From Phascolarctobacterium sp. (GTDB lineage: Bacteria; Bacillota; Negativicutes; Acidaminococcales; Acidaminococcaceae): a stretch of DNA of 64,000 nucleotides. Made by a program: the position numbers and the translations under genes. Location: positions 62,001 through 126,000 of the forward strand of contig JAUNIS010000002.1 of the NCBI GenBank assembly GCA_030523325.1, written 5' to 3'. The notes below the pieces were generated by a model. The model saw only the letters and a list, made by a program, of their open reading frames with translations. It was not told the origin of the DNA and searched no databases. Of this stretch, positions 1 through 28,451 are shown piece by piece (the stretch's first letter is position 1; every line of letters begins with the position of its first letter).

Positions 1-687
1 GAGCTCTCTTTGAAAAATATTTCCAAGTCTTTTGGAACAATGGAAGTTGTGAAAGAGCTGAGCTTAAATTTTCCAAGTGGTAGCTTTACCTCCATCGTCG
101 GAAAATCTGGATGCGGCAAAACAACTTTACTTAGACTTATGGCAGGCCTCGAGACTTGTGATAGCGGAGAAATTATTCTTCCTCAAGGAAAAATTGCCCC
201 TGTCTTTCAAGAGCCAAGACTCATGCCTTGGCTTAACGTAGCAGACAATATTACATTTGCTGCCATTCATGATAAAAATCTCGACAAAAAGCGTCTCGAC
301 GAAATTCTTCAGCTTTTAGAATTAACCGAGGCAAGAAATTTATATCCTCACCAGTTATCTGGTGGTATGGCTCAAAGAGTTTCTCTTGGTCGTACGCTTT
401 TTTATAATCCGGATGTAATTTTGATGGATGAGCCCTTTAGCGCTCTCGATTATTTTACCCGGCACAGCCTTCAGGAAACTCTCCTGCTTTTATACGAGCA
501 TGAGAAGAAGACAATTATTTTTGTTACCCATGACGTTGAGGAAGCCCTGCTTTTAGGCGACCGCATTTTAATTATGGATAAAGGTGCTATCAAAGAAAGC
601 ATCTGCATTGACCTGCCCCGCCCGCGAGAGGTAGCTCAAGAAGAATTTCAAATCTTGCGGAAAAAAATTTTAAACGCACTGTATTAA
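1..687 (+). CDS. ABC transporter ATP-binding protein, nitrate/sulfonate type (5' partial)
   Basis: ATPase of an SsuB/TauB/NrtD-type importer, which energises uptake of a sulfonate-, nitrate- or thiamine-precursor-like anion. The reading frame is open from base 1, so the true start lies before the window; the first in-window start codon (TTG at 10) has no ribosome binding site. Visible motifs are Walker A (GKSGCGKTT), a Q-loop (FQEP), the signature LSGGMAQR and Walker B (VILMDEP) followed by a switch histidine (THD). The matching binding protein follows after 31 bases; the permease is presumably upstream. The family is clear, the substrate is not. Confidence 0.88.
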   Translation, partial: ELSLKNISKSFGTMEVVKELSLNFPSGSFTSIVGKSGCGKTTLLRLMAGLETCDSGEIILPQGKIAPVFQEPRLMPWLNVADNITFAAIHDKNLDKKRLDEILQLLELTEARNLYPHQLSGGMAQRVSLGRTLFYNPDVILMDEPFSALDYFTRHSLQETLLLLYEHEKKTIIFVTHDVEEALLLGDRILIMDKGAIKESICIDLPRPREVAQEEFQILRKKILNALY

Positions 688-23384: not shown

Positions 23385-23912
23385 TTATGCTTTTGTCTCG
23401 ACGGCAAAGAGCGGTTCACCAGTCTTGATCTCGCCAGTCTTCAAGAGTTTAATGCTTTGGTTTTCATTAAGCTCAGTACAAATAATAGGAGTTGCAAGAG
23501 AAGGTGCATGCTCACCCACGTAAGTGAGATCGACCTTGATAAGTGCATCTCCCTTTTTCACATCTTGACCATCTGTTACCAATACCTCAAAACCTGCACC
23601 AGCAAGCTTAACCGTATCGATACCAATGTGAATTAAAATTCCCACATCATCAGCCGTTCTAAAGCCTATAGCATGTTTTGTTTCGAAAACAAATTCTACC
23701 ATTCCATCCGTCGGAGCAACTATAAGAGCTTCGCTCGGAGTTAAGACAGCACCATCACCCATCATTTTTTGGCTGAAGACTTCGTCAGGTGTTGTCGAAA
23801 TATCTCCTGCGTAACCCGTGATGGGGCTGTAAATAATTGTGCTTGAGGTAATGTTTTCTTCAGTAGCACCTGCTTCTTTTGTTTTTTCCATAAACTCTGT
23901 AATTTTTTCCAT
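23385..23912 (-). CDS. PTS glucose-family EIIA domain protein
   Basis: Phosphocarrier of the glucose/GlcNAc PTS family. I start it at the ATG at 23912, which has a strong AAAGGAG site; the frame itself runs further upstream into a decayed gene. After a 25-residue linker the EIIA fold is complete: FSQKMMGDG, the first histidine in ETKHAIGF (H80) and the phospho-accepting histidine in ILIHIGIDTV (H95). No EIIB or EIIC with it is intact: the sequence upstream is a broken EIIC relic. It may now serve a distant permease or act only as a regulator. The gene follows ptsI in direction of transcription. Confidence 0.82.
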   Translation of the reverse strand: MEKITEFMEKTKEAGATEENITSSTIIYSPITGYAGDISTTPDEVFSQKMMGDGAVLTPSEALIVAPTDGMVEFVFETKHAIGFRTADDVGILIHIGIDTVKLAGAGFEVLVTDGQDVKKGDALIKVDLTYVGEHAPSLATPIICTELNENQSIKLLKTGEIKTGEPLFAVETKA

Positions 23913-24265
23913 AGGCTCTTCTCCTTTACTTGTTTTCTCTACTGCAGGAAGAATTGTTGCTGCGACAGGTTTTTCGAGGAACTCTTCAAGATTGCCCTTA
24001 ACCACGGGAACACAATGAGCGCGCTTACTTTATCTTCTTCGATAAATTTGGCCACATCAGCTTCTGCAGCCCTACGTGCTTACACGTCGGCTTTGGCGTT
24101 GCCTAGCAAGATACCGAATAATGTTAAGTCGATGAGACCACCGGAGCAGGTCGAGCCAACTGCAATATTTAGGATGTGCGCAAGTGCGTAGCAGGAAGCT
24201 GCCAAAACCTGTCCGTTGATGGCAATGCTCAAAGCAAAAATATCATCTTACTTGCTATCTTCCTT
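23913..24265 (-). pseudogene. Relic of a PTS EIIC permease (glucose family)
   Basis: Between ptsI and the EIIA gene, translation on the minus strand gives a recognisable C-terminal EIIC fragment, with SGGLIDLTLFGILLGNAKAD matching the conserved 'FSxGxIDxxLFGxxxG' region. It is preceded by a stop (TGA in the frame to its left) and ended by TAA (about 24088). The frame then shifts (near 24000) into the open frame that leads to the EIIA protein (VVKGNLEEFLEKP). No intact start, no EIIB cysteine motif and at least one stop and one frameshift remain. This is most simply a former EIIC(B)A gene whose transporter part is dead. Confidence 0.7.
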
Positions 24266-25885
24266 TTAAAGGCTGCGAATTTTTGCACGCAGCGGTAAAA
24301 CAGAACTAGGAGCAACACTCAATTCATCTATGCCCATAGCAACGAATGCCTCAGTGAGAGATAAATCTGCACCTAATTCACCACAAATACCCGCCCAGAT
24401 GTTATTAGCATGTGCGTTCTGAACAGTCATTTCGATAAGCTTTAGCACCGCAGGATGGTGAGCATCGAAAAATTTTTCCAGGCTTTGATTTTGTCTATCG
24501 ATTGCTAAGGTATATTGTGTCAAATCATTAGTGCCAATACTAAAGAAATCGACAATCTTGCCCAACTCCATTGTCATGAGAGCAGCGGCAGGTGTCTCGA
24601 CCATAATGCCAATCTCAATGTTTTCGTCAAAAGCAATGTTTTCGGCTTTGAGCTCTTGCATAACCTCGGCCAAAGTATTTTTGCACTCGGTGATTTCCTG
24701 TGTGGAAATAATCATTGGGAACATAATCGCTAGCTTGCCGTAAGCTGATGCACGACAAATGGCACGCAATTGAGTTTTAAACAATTCCTTGCGAGTCAGA
24801 CAAATACGAATAGCTCGATAGCCTAGGGCAGGATTATCTTCTTCGGGCAGATTAAAATAAGCGGCTTGTTTATCAGCACCAATATCTAGCGTGCGAATAA
24901 TAACTTTTTTCTTACCTAAAGCCTCTGCAACCTGTTTATAAATGGCAAATTGTTTTTCTTCCGTAGGATAATCATCGCTTTCAAGATAAATGAATTCGCT
25001 ACGGAAAAGACCGATACCCTCAGCATCATTTTCAAAAACCTTGTCTAGGTCGGCAGTATTACCGATATTTGCATAGACGTTGACGTGTTGGCCGTTTTTT
25101 GTAACACTTAACTCACCCTTCAATTGATTAAGAGCCGTGCGTTCTGCTACCTCAGAGCGCAATTGCGCAGAATATTTTTCTAACAAATCACTTGTTGGCT
25201 CAATATAAACCAGACCATTGTGTCCGTCGATAATAACTAATTTACCTTCACACTCATCACCTACAAGCTCACCGGTATTTACTACCGCAGGAATTCCTAA
25301 GGTACGGGCAAGTATTGCCGTGTGAGAATTGGCACTGCCTGCACAGGTTACAAAACCTGCCACACGTTTTTTATCCATTTGCATGGTTTCACTGGGTGCA
25401 AGATCGTCGGTTAGTAGAATATATTTTCCCTCAGCGCAGTTAGTATCTTTACCAGCCCCGCTCAAGCAAGCGATTAAACGCTTGGAAATATCCTTGACGT
25501 CAGCAGCACGTCCTTGCATGTATTCGTCATCCATGGATGCAAAAATTTCTGCAAAGCTTTCTCCTGTTTGAAAAACCGCGTAGACTGCGTTGCATTTTTC
25601 CGCTTGAATGATTCTTTCGATGGATTCAACGTAATCCATGTCCTCGAGCATCATTTTGTGAATTTCGAAAATAGCAGCACTTTCCTCGCCAACCGTCTCT
25701 AGCGCCTTATGATAAAGCTCGTCTAATTGTCTCATGGCTAAGTTTTGAGCAACGTGAAAAGCTTCTAGCTCACTATTAACATCGCTTACCTGCACTTTTT
25801 CTACGCTTGTGTTTGTGTGTTTTAATAAATGCAGTGGTGCGATGGCAATAGCTTCATAAACACTCTTGCCTTGTAAGGTTATCAT
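24266..25885 (-). CDS. ptsI: PTS Enzyme I (phosphoenolpyruvate-protein phosphotransferase)
   Basis: Cytosolic enzyme that takes phosphate from PEP to HPr. The HPr-binding helical domain (about 30-145), the swivelling domain with the phospho-histidine H188 (GSANSHTAILAR) and the TIM-barrel PEP site (about 250-539; EGIGLFRSEFIYL, MVETPAAA, FFSIGTNDLTQY, GICGELGAD) are all present. The 539 aa are slightly short of the usual 570, mostly at the C-terminus. It lies 30 bases downstream of ptsH on the minus strand with an AAAGGAGT site. Confidence 0.95.
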   Translation of the reverse strand: MITLQGKSVYEAIAIAPLHLLKHTNTSVEKVQVSDVNSELEAFHVAQNLAMRQLDELYHKALETVGEESAAIFEIHKMMLEDMDYVESIERIIQAEKCNAVYAVFQTGESFAEIFASMDDEYMQGRAADVKDISKRLIACLSGAGKDTNCAEGKYILLTDDLAPSETMQMDKKRVAGFVTCAGSANSHTAILARTLGIPAVVNTGELVGDECEGKLVIIDGHNGLVYIEPTSDLLEKYSAQLRSEVAERTALNQLKGELSVTKNGQHVNVYANIGNTADLDKVFENDAEGIGLFRSEFIYLESDDYPTEEKQFAIYKQVAEALGKKKVIIRTLDIGADKQAAYFNLPEEDNPALGYRAIRICLTRKELFKTQLRAICRASAYGKLAIMFPMIISTQEITECKNTLAEVMQELKAENIAFDENIEIGIMVETPAAALMTMELGKIVDFFSIGTNDLTQYTLAIDRQNQSLEKFFDAHHPAVLKLIEMTVQNAHANNIWAGICGELGADLSLTEAFVAMGIDELSVAPSSVLPLRAKIRSL

Positions 25886-25915: not shown

Positions 25916-26173
25916 TTAGAGATTAGCCTTCAAGAAAGCCTCGATGCTGCTTGCTGCTTCGGTTTCGTCTGCACCGTCACAGGTAATGGTTATTTCATCT
26001 CCTTGTTTTACGCCCAAAGCCATAACACCAAAGAGGCGTTTTAAATCTACGCTCTTCGCACCCTTGGTGATGGTAACTTTAGAAGAAAATTTTGCAGCCT
26101 CTTTAACTAAAAGTCCAGCTGGACGAGCGTGAATGCCTACAGGATCGGTAACACGATAAGTGAATTTTTTCAT
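25916..26173 (-). CDS. ptsH: Phosphocarrier protein HPr with Ser46 replaced by Arg
   Basis: Small PTS phosphocarrier, 85 aa. The active histidine is H15 in GIHARPAG, so Enzyme I can phosphorylate it. The regulatory site differs: at residue 46, where Gram-positive HPr carries the serine phosphorylated by HPr kinase (typical sequence KSIMGVMSL), this protein reads KRLFGVMAL, an arginine (codon CGC). That should abolish HPr-Ser-P signalling to CcpA, assuming no second HPr exists elsewhere. First gene of the ptsH-ptsI-EIIA unit; an extended -10 (TGCTATAAT on the minus strand, 26222-26230) lies upstream. Confidence 0.93.
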   Translation of the reverse strand: MKKFTYRVTDPVGIHARPAGLLVKEAAKFSSKVTITKGAKSVDLKRLFGVMALGVKQGDEITITCDGADETEAASSIEAFLKANL

Positions 26174-26397: not shown

Positions 26398-26490
26398 GAC
26401 GTCAAAGCTGGCAATCCTGTTACTACTGATGATGTAGATTTGACAGGTCTTGCAACTTATAATTTATTCAAAAAAGGTTTAGAACTATAA
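26398..26490 (+). pseudogene. 3' remnant of a gene, probably a SAF-domain protein
   Basis: The plus-strand frame from 26398 to the stop at 26490 reads DVKAGNPVTTDDVDLTGLAT and a short tail ending GLEL. The 'D(V/I)KAGxxVTxDDV' pattern followed by a short amphipathic tail is what the end of a SAF domain looks like (homoserine dehydrogenase-like oxidoreductases and relatives). Upstream of it lies only the antisense rpoN remnant. The gene end keeps its own terminator. The family call is tentative. Confidence 0.5.
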
Positions 26491-26497
26491 TTTAATT

Positions 26498-26553
26498 TTT
26501 AAAGGACTGCACTGATAACTATTATGTAAACGTTGTCAGGCAGTCCTTTTTTC
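26498..26553 (+). terminator. Long Rho-independent terminator
   Basis: AAAGGACTGC-A-CTGATAAC pairs with GTTGTCAG-GCAGTCCTTT (one bulge, one G-U), followed by TTTT. It is the leftover terminator of the truncated plus-strand gene. Confidence 0.82.
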
Positions 26554-26560
26554 TTTTCGC

Positions 26561-26590
26561 AAAAAAATGCCGTGGCTGGAGAGCCACGGC
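26561..26590 (-). terminator. Terminator of the candidate small RNA
   Basis: Perfect 9-bp stem with a 4-nt loop; reading the minus strand it is followed by ATTTTTTT. On the plus strand no T-run follows, so it works only leftward. Confidence 0.8.
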
Positions 26591-26655
26591 TAAGAAGGGG
26601 AGATGTATGATGAGTCTTCGTTATAGAAGATGAAATTTTATTTTACTACTTCCTT
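26562..26655 (-). ncRNA. Candidate small RNA, about 94 nt, with C/U-rich linker
   Basis: On the minus strand a good sigma-A promoter (26662-26689) would start a transcript near 26655. That transcript has a small hairpin (UCUUC/GAAGA, about 26615-26630), then an unpaired linker containing CAUCUCCCCUUCUU (about 26591-26604), and ends in a perfect 9-bp GC-rich hairpin (GCCGUGGCU/AGCCACGGC, 26569-26590) followed by A and U7. A promoter plus a terminator 70-95 bases apart with no reading frame between is the layout of a trans-acting sRNA. The linker is complementary to ribosome binding sites, as in RsaE/FsrA-type Firmicute sRNAs. I cannot assign it to a known family. Confidence 0.6.
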
Positions 26656-26661
26656 GTTTCA

Positions 26662-26689
26662 ATTATATGATAGCAAGAGATTATGACAA
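26662..26689 (-). promoter_or_regulatory. Sigma-A promoter of the candidate small RNA
   Basis: Minus strand TTGTCA, 16 bp, TATAAT. It points away from the Na/Pi transporter gene and toward the terminator at 26561-26590. Confidence 0.68.
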
Positions 26690-26775
26690 AATTATGTTAA
26701 TTTAAAAAAGTTTTGCCAAGTATTGAAAAGTTTTTTAAATAAATAAATTTTGTAAGAAGCGAGTTAGTGCCTTTG

Positions 26776-26843: not shown

Positions 26844-28451
26844 ATGATAACATATTTCTTTGCTTTCTTAGGTGGCATTGCCTTATTCTTTTACGGCATG
26901 CAATTAATGAGCGATGGTTTGCAAAAAGCGGCTGGTGAAAAATTACAGGGCATCTTAGAGAAAATGACGGGCGTGCTTGTCTTCGGTGTTCTGCTTGGAG
27001 CTTTAGTTACAGCTGTGCTGCAATCCTCAAGTGCGACGACAGTCATGACCATCGGTCTTGTTAACGCAGGACTCTTAACCTTAAAACAAGCCTTTGGCGT
27101 AGTCATGGGTGCTAACGTCGGCACAACTATGATGGCACAGTTGATTGCCTTCAAACTCACTGATTACGTAACGCTCATGCTTTTCATTGGCGTTATGGTG
27201 CAGATGATTTCTAAACGTGTCAAAGGCAAATACATCGGCCAGGTAATTTTAGGCTTCGGCATTATTATGCTGGGTATGGAAATGATGAGTGGTGCCGTAA
27301 TTCCTTTGAAGGAATATCAAGGCTTTAGAGATTTCATCGCAACCTTTGGCGCCAATCCTATTCTCGGCGTTTTAGTCGGCACGTTCATTACTCTTTTAGT
27401 ACAATCCTCTGGTGCAATTATCGCAATTTTAATCGCTATGGCTATACAAGGCTTAATTGGCCTTGACGGAGCAATCCCAGTGCTCTTGGGTACCAATATC
27501 GGTACTTGTATTACTGCAGTTATCGCTGCCATTAACAGTAATCCTACTGCGAAAAGAGTTGCTCTTGCCCACGTACTTTTTAACGTCATCGGCTCCGTAA
27601 TTTTCCTCTGTGCTCTTGGCCCCTATGAAACCTTAATTCGCGCAATCTCTCCTGACAATGATGTTGCAAGACAAATCGCGAATGCTCATACCTTGTTCAA
27701 TTTAATCAATACAATTATATTCCTGCCGTTTACCAATCAATTTATTGTTCTTATCGAACGCTTGATGCCAGCTAAGGGTGAGGTCATCTCCATGCGTCCT
27801 GAATATCTCGACAAGGCCATGCTTGCAACTCCCACCGTTGCTATGAGTCTTGCTGTCAAAGAAACACTGCGTATGGGCAATCTTGCTCGTAAAAACGTTG
27901 GCAAAGCTCTCGAATCCATTGACGAATACAATGCGGATAATGTTACCTACGTTTTAGAGCATGAACCCGTTGTCGATTCTTTGGAGACTAACATCACTGA
28001 CTATTTAACGGAGATGAGCGAGCATCCTATGCCAGAATTTTTGTCCTATCGTCACACCAGCCTTTTGCATGCCGTTAATGATATCGAACGTATTGGCGAC
28101 CATGCAGAAACCTTGGCAAAAAAATCACGCATGATTTTCGAAGAAGAAGTTAATTTCTCACCTGAGGCTCGAGAAGAATTAAAACAACTCTCCGAAATGG
28201 TTATGGCTGCAAGTGGTCGTAGTTTGGAAGCCTTGGAGCACAATAATAAAAAAATTGCTGATGAAGCTGTTGAGTTGTGCCGAGCTGTTAAACGTTTCCA
28301 AAAAGAAATACGCAAGAACCACATTACTCGTCTTGGCGAAAGAAAATGCGATCCAGTTGCAGGCTTCGTTATGTTAGAACTTTTAATTAATATGAAGCGT
28401 GTTGCAGACCATTCTAAAAATATCGCTCAGCTCGTACAAGGCACCTTCTAA
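26844..28451 (+). CDS. Na/Pi cotransporter family protein with PhoU-like domain
   Basis: Inner-membrane phosphate (or other anion) transporter of the NptA/YjbB class. The membrane part (about 1-310) has the two inverted repeats with the QSS motifs VTAVLQSSSATTVMT and ITLLVQSSGAIIAIL and the LGTNIGTC and MGANVGTT loops. Residues about 330-535 form a helical PhoU-like regulatory domain. In characterised homologues transport is Na+-driven. It is a single gene, closed by a terminator. Substrate specificity is by family only. Confidence 0.9.
   Translation: MITYFFAFLGGIALFFYGMQLMSDGLQKAAGEKLQGILEKMTGVLVFGVLLGALVTAVLQSSSATTVMTIGLVNAGLLTLKQAFGVVMGANVGTTMMAQLIAFKLTDYVTLMLFIGVMVQMISKRVKGKYIGQVILGFGIIMLGMEMMSGAVIPLKEYQGFRDFIATFGANPILGVLVGTFITLLVQSSGAIIAILIAMAIQGLIGLDGAIPVLLGTNIGTCITAVIAAINSNPTAKRVALAHVLFNVIGSVIFLCALGPYETLIRAISPDNDVARQIANAHTLFNLINTIIFLPFTNQFIVLIERLMPAKGEVISMRPEYLDKAMLATPTVAMSLAVKETLRMGNLARKNVGKALESIDEYNADNVTYVLEHEPVVDSLETNITDYLTEMSEHPMPEFLSYRHTSLLHAVNDIERIGDHAETLAKKSRMIFEEEVNFSPEAREELKQLSEMVMAASGRSLEALEHNNKKIADEAVELCRAVKRFQKEIRKNHITRLGERKCDPVAGFVMLELLINMKRVADHSKNIAQLVQGTF

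Follow-up and report, generated by a model that had tools for sequence, protein, structure and literature searches.

What kind of gene lies between the Na/Pi cotransporter gene and ptsH in this Phascolarctobacterium genome, and where did it come from? The origin of bacterial small RNA (sRNA) genes is poorly documented, because such genes change fast and few intermediates are left. We analyzed a window of 64,000 nt from Phascolarctobacterium sp. (GCA_030523325.1, contig JAUNIS010000002.1, positions 62,001-126,000 of the forward strand; the genome is called G000 below), in which the original prediction had placed a trans-acting sRNA with a linker complementary to ribosome-binding sites. Our analysis makes it probable that the locus is a Phascolarctobacterium-specific small regulatory RNA gene, descended from the mRNA of a thioredoxin-like protein, whose linker would pair with the starts of several mRNAs.

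The gene lies on the minus strand. Its putative sigma-70 promoter, TTGTCA (26689-26684) and TATAAT (26667-26662) separated by a 16-nt spacer, agrees with the consensus at 11 of 12 positions and ranks first among the 15 promoter-like sites found in 3.5 kb (8.2 in shuffles, all grades). The TTGCTATCATATAA of this promoter is common to the orthologous promoter of G071. The predicted transcript, about 95 nt long (26561..26655), starts at an estimated site 7 nt past the -10 element with a purine leader, AAGGAAG (26649..26655), that is also found in relatives, several of which fold it into a 5' stem. A small hairpin, UCUUC/GAAGA (26615..26630), precedes the linker ACUCAUCAUACAUCUCCCCUU (26595..26615), which is complementary to a Shine-Dalgarno sequence, spacer and AUG. 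An intrinsic terminator closes the unit (26561..26590, stem-loop 26590-26569); it reads GCCGTGGCT-CTCC-AGCCACGGC, a 9-bp stem with seven G-C pairs around a 4-nt loop, with A and T7 behind it.

No reading frame runs through the predicted RNA, and its sole internal start codon sits within the terminator. The folding energy of the 94-nt RNA, -25.2 kcal/mol, was matched by none of 200 shuffles, which averaged -11.3 +/- 2.6 (z -5.4). The promoter, the span of about 94 nt ending in a perfect GC-rich hairpin plus U7 and the lack of a frame between them are as originally described. The linker had also been called unpaired, which holds for its core, mostly unpaired in the folds (mean 0.83 for the window RNA and 0.74-1.00 for the other seven stand-alone homologues), but not for its 3' part, CCUUCUU, which can pair with the 5' AAGGAAG in the minimum-energy fold of the window RNA. 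The locus carries the features by which a trans-acting base-pairing sRNA is recognized in sequence: its own predicted promoter, an intrinsic terminator, a non-coding transcript between them and, across the homologues, a conserved unpaired seed in an otherwise variable RNA. Judged from its sequence, the unit is a real and conserved RNA gene with a predicted transcript.

A covariance model of the unit, the kind of search that the original prediction had proposed, was run over 63 genomes of the order. It recovered 12 of them at 47.8-81.9 bits, all Phascolarctobacterium and falling in three genus-level groups (g1, g11 and g17), while the next match scored 29.7 bits. The linker is the most conserved part, its core CAUCAUACAyCUCyCC (26612-26597) being invariant across the 12 genomes save for two C/U positions. 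Terminator stems vary with pairing kept, with two-sided compensatory changes in 4 of 14 pairs among G001, G004 and G002 (97.6% paired) and in 3 of 9 pairs among G071, G022 and G070 (100% paired). The nearest homologue, in G006 of the same genus, has the identical 21-nt linker ACTCATCATACATCTCCCCTT, the preceding small hairpin and TATAAT; its terminator stem has another sequence, fully paired nonetheless. Promoter, linker and terminator, on whose conservation in close relatives the earlier claim had been staked, are thus all conserved.

A pattern search for the linker core with a T-run after it hit 28 contigs among 85,000 species genomes. The complete unit is present in all 11 contigs that are named Phascolarctobacterium; we rejected the remaining contigs, which are single unrelated matches. 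Members outside the genus were likewise rejected, since most of the weaker covariance matches examined fall on ordinary gene starts, read on the minus strand. Nowhere in the 64 kb does an Rfam family reach its gathering score. The highest-scoring families below that threshold at the RNA locus were ncS025 (23.9 of 46 bits) and LhrC (17.5 of 110), with RsaE and FsrA absent. The loci L193, L194 and L190 likewise match no Rfam family. The proposed kinship with RsaE/RoxS or FsrA was abandoned, there being no such match even far below threshold; the Phascolarctobacterium RNA is a new family of a known kind of RNA. As a separate observation, the 3' UTR of a clpB-like gene in G005 (L192, ~559-623, minus strand) has ACATCTCTTTTCATCACTCTCCTT before its terminator (21.6 bits), either a similar linker or chance.

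The descent of the RNA, which the original prediction had missed, emerges from comparison of orthologous loci. In G016, G028, G032 and G070 the orthologous promoter and the 3' module (AACAACATCTTTTCATCATACACCTCTCCTT plus terminator) flank a 79-aa ORF (MHVKILGPMTKQAE...EQLQ) that matches Thioredoxin_3 / TIGR00412; between its stop codon and the terminator, the linker forms the 3' UTR of this thioredoxin-like mRNA. The promoter common to ORF-bearing and ORF-less loci reads TTTGGACAAACCTATTTGCTATTATATAACCAAGGAA... in g17. Related proteins carry GSGCxxC in distant relatives and GPMTKxC in G008, G015 and G020, and no CxxC in Phascolarctobacterium. Of the ORF, G071 retains only GAGCAGCTGCAATAG (EQLQ-stop), joined to the unchanged 3' module and placed after the unchanged promoter and leader. 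Even this remnant is gone from G022 and all g1 genomes, the window's included, where the RNA remains.

The locus is anchored by a pyruvate:ferredoxin oxidoreductase gene upstream (g11, g17) and the Na/Pi cotransporter gene downstream (g11, most g1). In the outgroup G008 the ORF occupies the corresponding position next to the Na/Pi gene, under a similar promoter, and the linker is missing, which indicates that ORF loss is the direction of change; together with the G071 remnant and the locus anchors, it gives the order ORF, then linker, then ORF loss. In a tree of the Na/Pi protein, G022 and G071 fall outside G070+G032 (support 85/85 at one node). This topology implies at least two independent ORF losses, and there were probably three or four. 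An intact thioredoxin-like gene also survives in the window's genome, on contig C38 under another promoter, with TTCATACACATCTCTCCTTCTT and a terminator directly past the stop codon. This diverged linker copy (L190, 833-905) scores 27, a value reached by 0 of 6000 random 60-mers of G000; it lies in a 3' UTR, and the window copy stands alone. The two linkers in one genome may belong to two RNAs with overlapping targets.

At the level of sequence, these comparisons show that the RNA derives from an mRNA that encoded a cysteine-less thioredoxin-like protein and whose 3' UTR had gained a C/U-rich linker just before the terminator, and that several lineages deleted the ORF and kept promoter, 5' leader, linker and terminator as a predicted stand-alone RNA of 95-130 nt. 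The series would run from CxxC thioredoxin to cysteine-less thioredoxin, to its mRNA with a 3'-UTR seed, to an RNA with the last ORF codons and finally to a clean sRNA. The evidence leans towards a repeated conversion of a protein gene into a regulatory RNA gene within one genus whose living species still show the stages, selection having kept the start-region seed and not the protein.

What the linker would recognize is suggested by its sequence, whose reverse complement, AAGGrGAGrUGU-AUG-AUGA, makes up a complete translation start. For target statistics we took start regions from the window and from 391 kb of further stretches of G000. Against 403 start regions the linker reached a mean duplex energy of -11.5, which only one of 60 shuffled linkers equaled or bettered. 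Its excess for start regions over coding positions was -3.24, compared with -0.93 +/- 0.75 in shuffles (0 of 60 equal). The start-region test was repeated in other genomes with their own linkers, and 0 of 40 (G002), 0 of 40 (G022) and 1 of 40 shuffles (G016) did as well. By these shuffle tests, the linker is an anti-start-region sequence and not merely C-rich. The complementarity to ribosome-binding sites that had been proposed is supported and reaches further than claimed, from the Shine-Dalgarno sequence through AUG; the suggested target prediction with the C/U-rich segment gave a start-region preference beyond shuffles in four genomes.

Lipoprotein substrate-binding proteins make up four of the 25 best targets in G000 (SBP_bac_6 twice, DctP and SBP_bac_5 once each), an enrichment with p 0.01 given 15 lipobox genes among the 403. 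Such lipoproteins of transporters appear to be the best candidate targets here. GcvB of enterobacteria represses several periplasmic substrate-binding proteins via pairing at start regions; the comparison concerns only how the RNAs would work, as we found no sequence relation and the Phascolarctobacterium targets are predicted. An SBP_bac_6 gene was found in every RNA-bearing genome tested. It is the best candidate in G000 and G006 and a modest one in others, ranking 25 of 118 in G016 (10 by shuffle z-score). In G000 and G006 the linker has changed from UUUUCAU to GACUCAU and the SBP_bac_6 gene start from AUGAAAA to AUGAGU, a single parallel change that is suggestive only.

Because the linker resembles an anti-Shine-Dalgarno sequence and pairs with many starts, single targets are hard to separate from background. 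Genomes that do not have the RNA likewise have start regions complementary to the linker, and in G000 none of the targets pairs near-perfectly, the 19-nt target pattern matching only the RNA gene itself at up to two mismatches. Start regions with two to three mismatches recur for a YfcC-type transporter (G001/G004), bioA (G001/G003/G004), an oligopeptide-binding protein (G001/G003), cmk (G032/G070) and a DUF1858-like gene (G001/G004); we rejected these exact-pattern targets, which do not recur in all lineages. The Na/Pi mRNA was also rejected, since its GAGGUG start pairs over 7 nt but as a generic Shine-Dalgarno sequence, ranking 21 of 60 window genes.

The linker might instead act only in cis, in the stability, processing or protein binding of the 3' UTR of the thioredoxin mRNA, with the stand-alone copies as functionless decaying remnants. 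Four genomes in which the ORF is intact, with the linker in its 3' UTR, agree with such a role, as does the fact that all targets so far are only candidates. We nevertheless consider it unlikely: promoter, linker and strong terminator persist in the eight genomes with a stand-alone RNA, where they have outlasted the ORF, the linker is the most conserved part, and a preference for start regions is nothing that a cis role requires. Quite improbable is a 5' leader or attenuator of the neighboring gene in place of a free RNA. The unit does lie 110-150 bp upstream of a same-strand Na/Pi gene in G001, G004, G016 and G028, and ptsHI lies downstream on the same strand in the window; however, the Na/Pi gene is divergent in the window and in G006, downstream genes vary among species, and a strong terminator always closes the unit.

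Still less probable is that the opposite strand is the functional one, with the 21-mer serving as Shine-Dalgarno sequence and start (AAGGGGAG-ATGT-ATG-ATG) of a short peptide or leader peptide gene. The plus strand at 26595-26615 reads as a perfect start region, and open frames of 103-104 aa lie there in G016 and G028, yet the frames measure 6, 8, 26, 27, 31, 103 and 104 aa with only MMK/MMS in common. The non-coding spacer is as strongly conserved as the start codon, and T-run and conserved promoter are both on the RNA strand; we rejected this reading because the peptides are not conserved. Finally, a chance promoter and terminator in a short A+T-rich intergenic region, where such single features do arise, is made very unlikely, the least credible of these readings, by cross-species conservation with compensatory changes.

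For a trans-acting RNA descended from the thioredoxin-like mRNA, the mechanism that we infer as the best is repression at ribosome-binding sites. The RNA would be transcribed from its own promoter, its unpaired linker would pair with the Shine-Dalgarno sequence, spacer and AUG of several mRNAs, and pairing at these starts would block ribosome loading. Hfq probably takes part, its binding being presumed from the presence of its gene in all eight genomes tested.

Like RsaE/RoxS, FsrA, IsrR and LhrC, the window RNA is a short intergenic RNA with its own promoter and terminator, here predicted, and an unpaired C-rich patch complementary to Shine-Dalgarno sequences; C-rich region 3 of RoxS, for example, binds the ppnKB start region (PMC4409812). 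Unlike RsaE/RoxS and other C-rich Firmicute sRNAs, which have several C-rich regions, it has a single linker reaching through AUG, and it differs from the RsaE/RoxS group in its lack of an Rfam match, its restriction to Phascolarctobacterium and its descent from an mRNA. sRNAs derived from 3' UTRs are well known, such as CpxQ, SdhX and OppZ (review PMC9438474). The present RNA resembles them in that its most conserved part follows closely on a stop codon and is itself followed by an intrinsic terminator, with Hfq present, whereas the window species has lost the parental ORF and the RNA's own promoter was inherited from the mRNA. Yersinia SgrS lacking the sgrT ORF is a dual-function RNA losing its coding part (PMC4021124), and there too the base-pairing part outlives the coding part. 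However, sgrT encodes a small protein of ~40 aa within a recognized sRNA, while the ORF lost here encodes a 79-aa protein of known domain family; this ORF has been lost more than once in a single genus, and a remnant stage survives.

The unusual part is the repeated turn of a domain-protein gene into a stand-alone sRNA in one genus with intermediates preserved. At one locus, with fixed promoter and anchoring neighbors, the route from mRNA to sRNA can be followed within a single genus, and a coding remnant gives its direction. We found no report of such a repeated conversion in the literature covered, which was mostly non-subscription and limits the claim of novelty accordingly. Among the best matches in open full texts for the genus and 'small RNA', there was no study of Phascolarctobacterium's own small RNAs; the present RNA, whose seed can be tested, is a first candidate for a regulatory RNA in this common gut commensal.

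A metabolic role had been proposed from the position beside PTS relics and a phosphate transporter. Downstream genes vary, with ptsH here, a MATE transporter gene on the other strand in G006 and the Na/Pi gene elsewhere; the PTS genes are not conserved beside the RNA, and we dropped a role tied to them, ptsHI included. By eye, PTS relics occupy 23385-24232 (minus strand), an IIA-glucose-type protein amid EIIBC remnants, adjoining apparently intact ptsI (24266-25885) and ptsH (25916-26173). Between the sRNA and ptsH, the minus strand at 26399-26322 holds a fragment, LRRTVTKYREQYNIPAASKRKFTKQ-stop, that by eye resembles the C-terminal end of sigma-54 (RpoN) and is followed by a terminator-like repeat; it is probably a gene relic. 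A frame fragment on the plus strand at 26424-26490, DVKAGNPVTTDDVDLTGLATYNLFKKGLEL, resembles the C-terminus of a protein with a SAF-type domain, and the 74-aa ORF there has no Pfam match. Just past the sRNA terminator lies a long inverted repeat, AAAGGACTGC...GCAGTCCTTT (26500-26550, both strands), and hairpins with a AGGACTGC...GCAGTCCT-type stem also precede the RNA or thioredoxin promoter in G022, G032 and G071.

On the other side, the Na/Pi cotransporter gene (Na_Pi_cotrans + PhoU; 26844..28451, plus strand) is divergent here; in most genomes of g1 and g11 it adjoins the RNA gene. A direct repeat with an 11-bp period, TTAACA-N5-TTGTCA (26684..26700, minus strand), overlaps the -35 element and may be a Pho-box-like element. 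In orthologous promoters a direct repeat with this period, TTCACA-N5-TTYACY, lies upstream of -35; the pstS promoters of these genomes bear comparable repeats, TTTACA/TTAACA, and pstS follows a gene for a PhoR-like kinase. The Pho-box-like repeats and the Na/Pi neighbor suggest phosphate control of the RNA promoter, which we regard as possible but somewhat doubtful. A Rex site in the promoter was rejected by eye, its half-sites being in the wrong order. Separately, PstS-like lipoproteins are circularly permuted in L219 (G071), L220 (G032), L223 (G022) and also L221, L222, L224, L225, L226 and L218, with TIGR02136 positions 154-293 and 16-157 in swapped order within one ORF; the PstS of the window's genome (L217) has the normal order.
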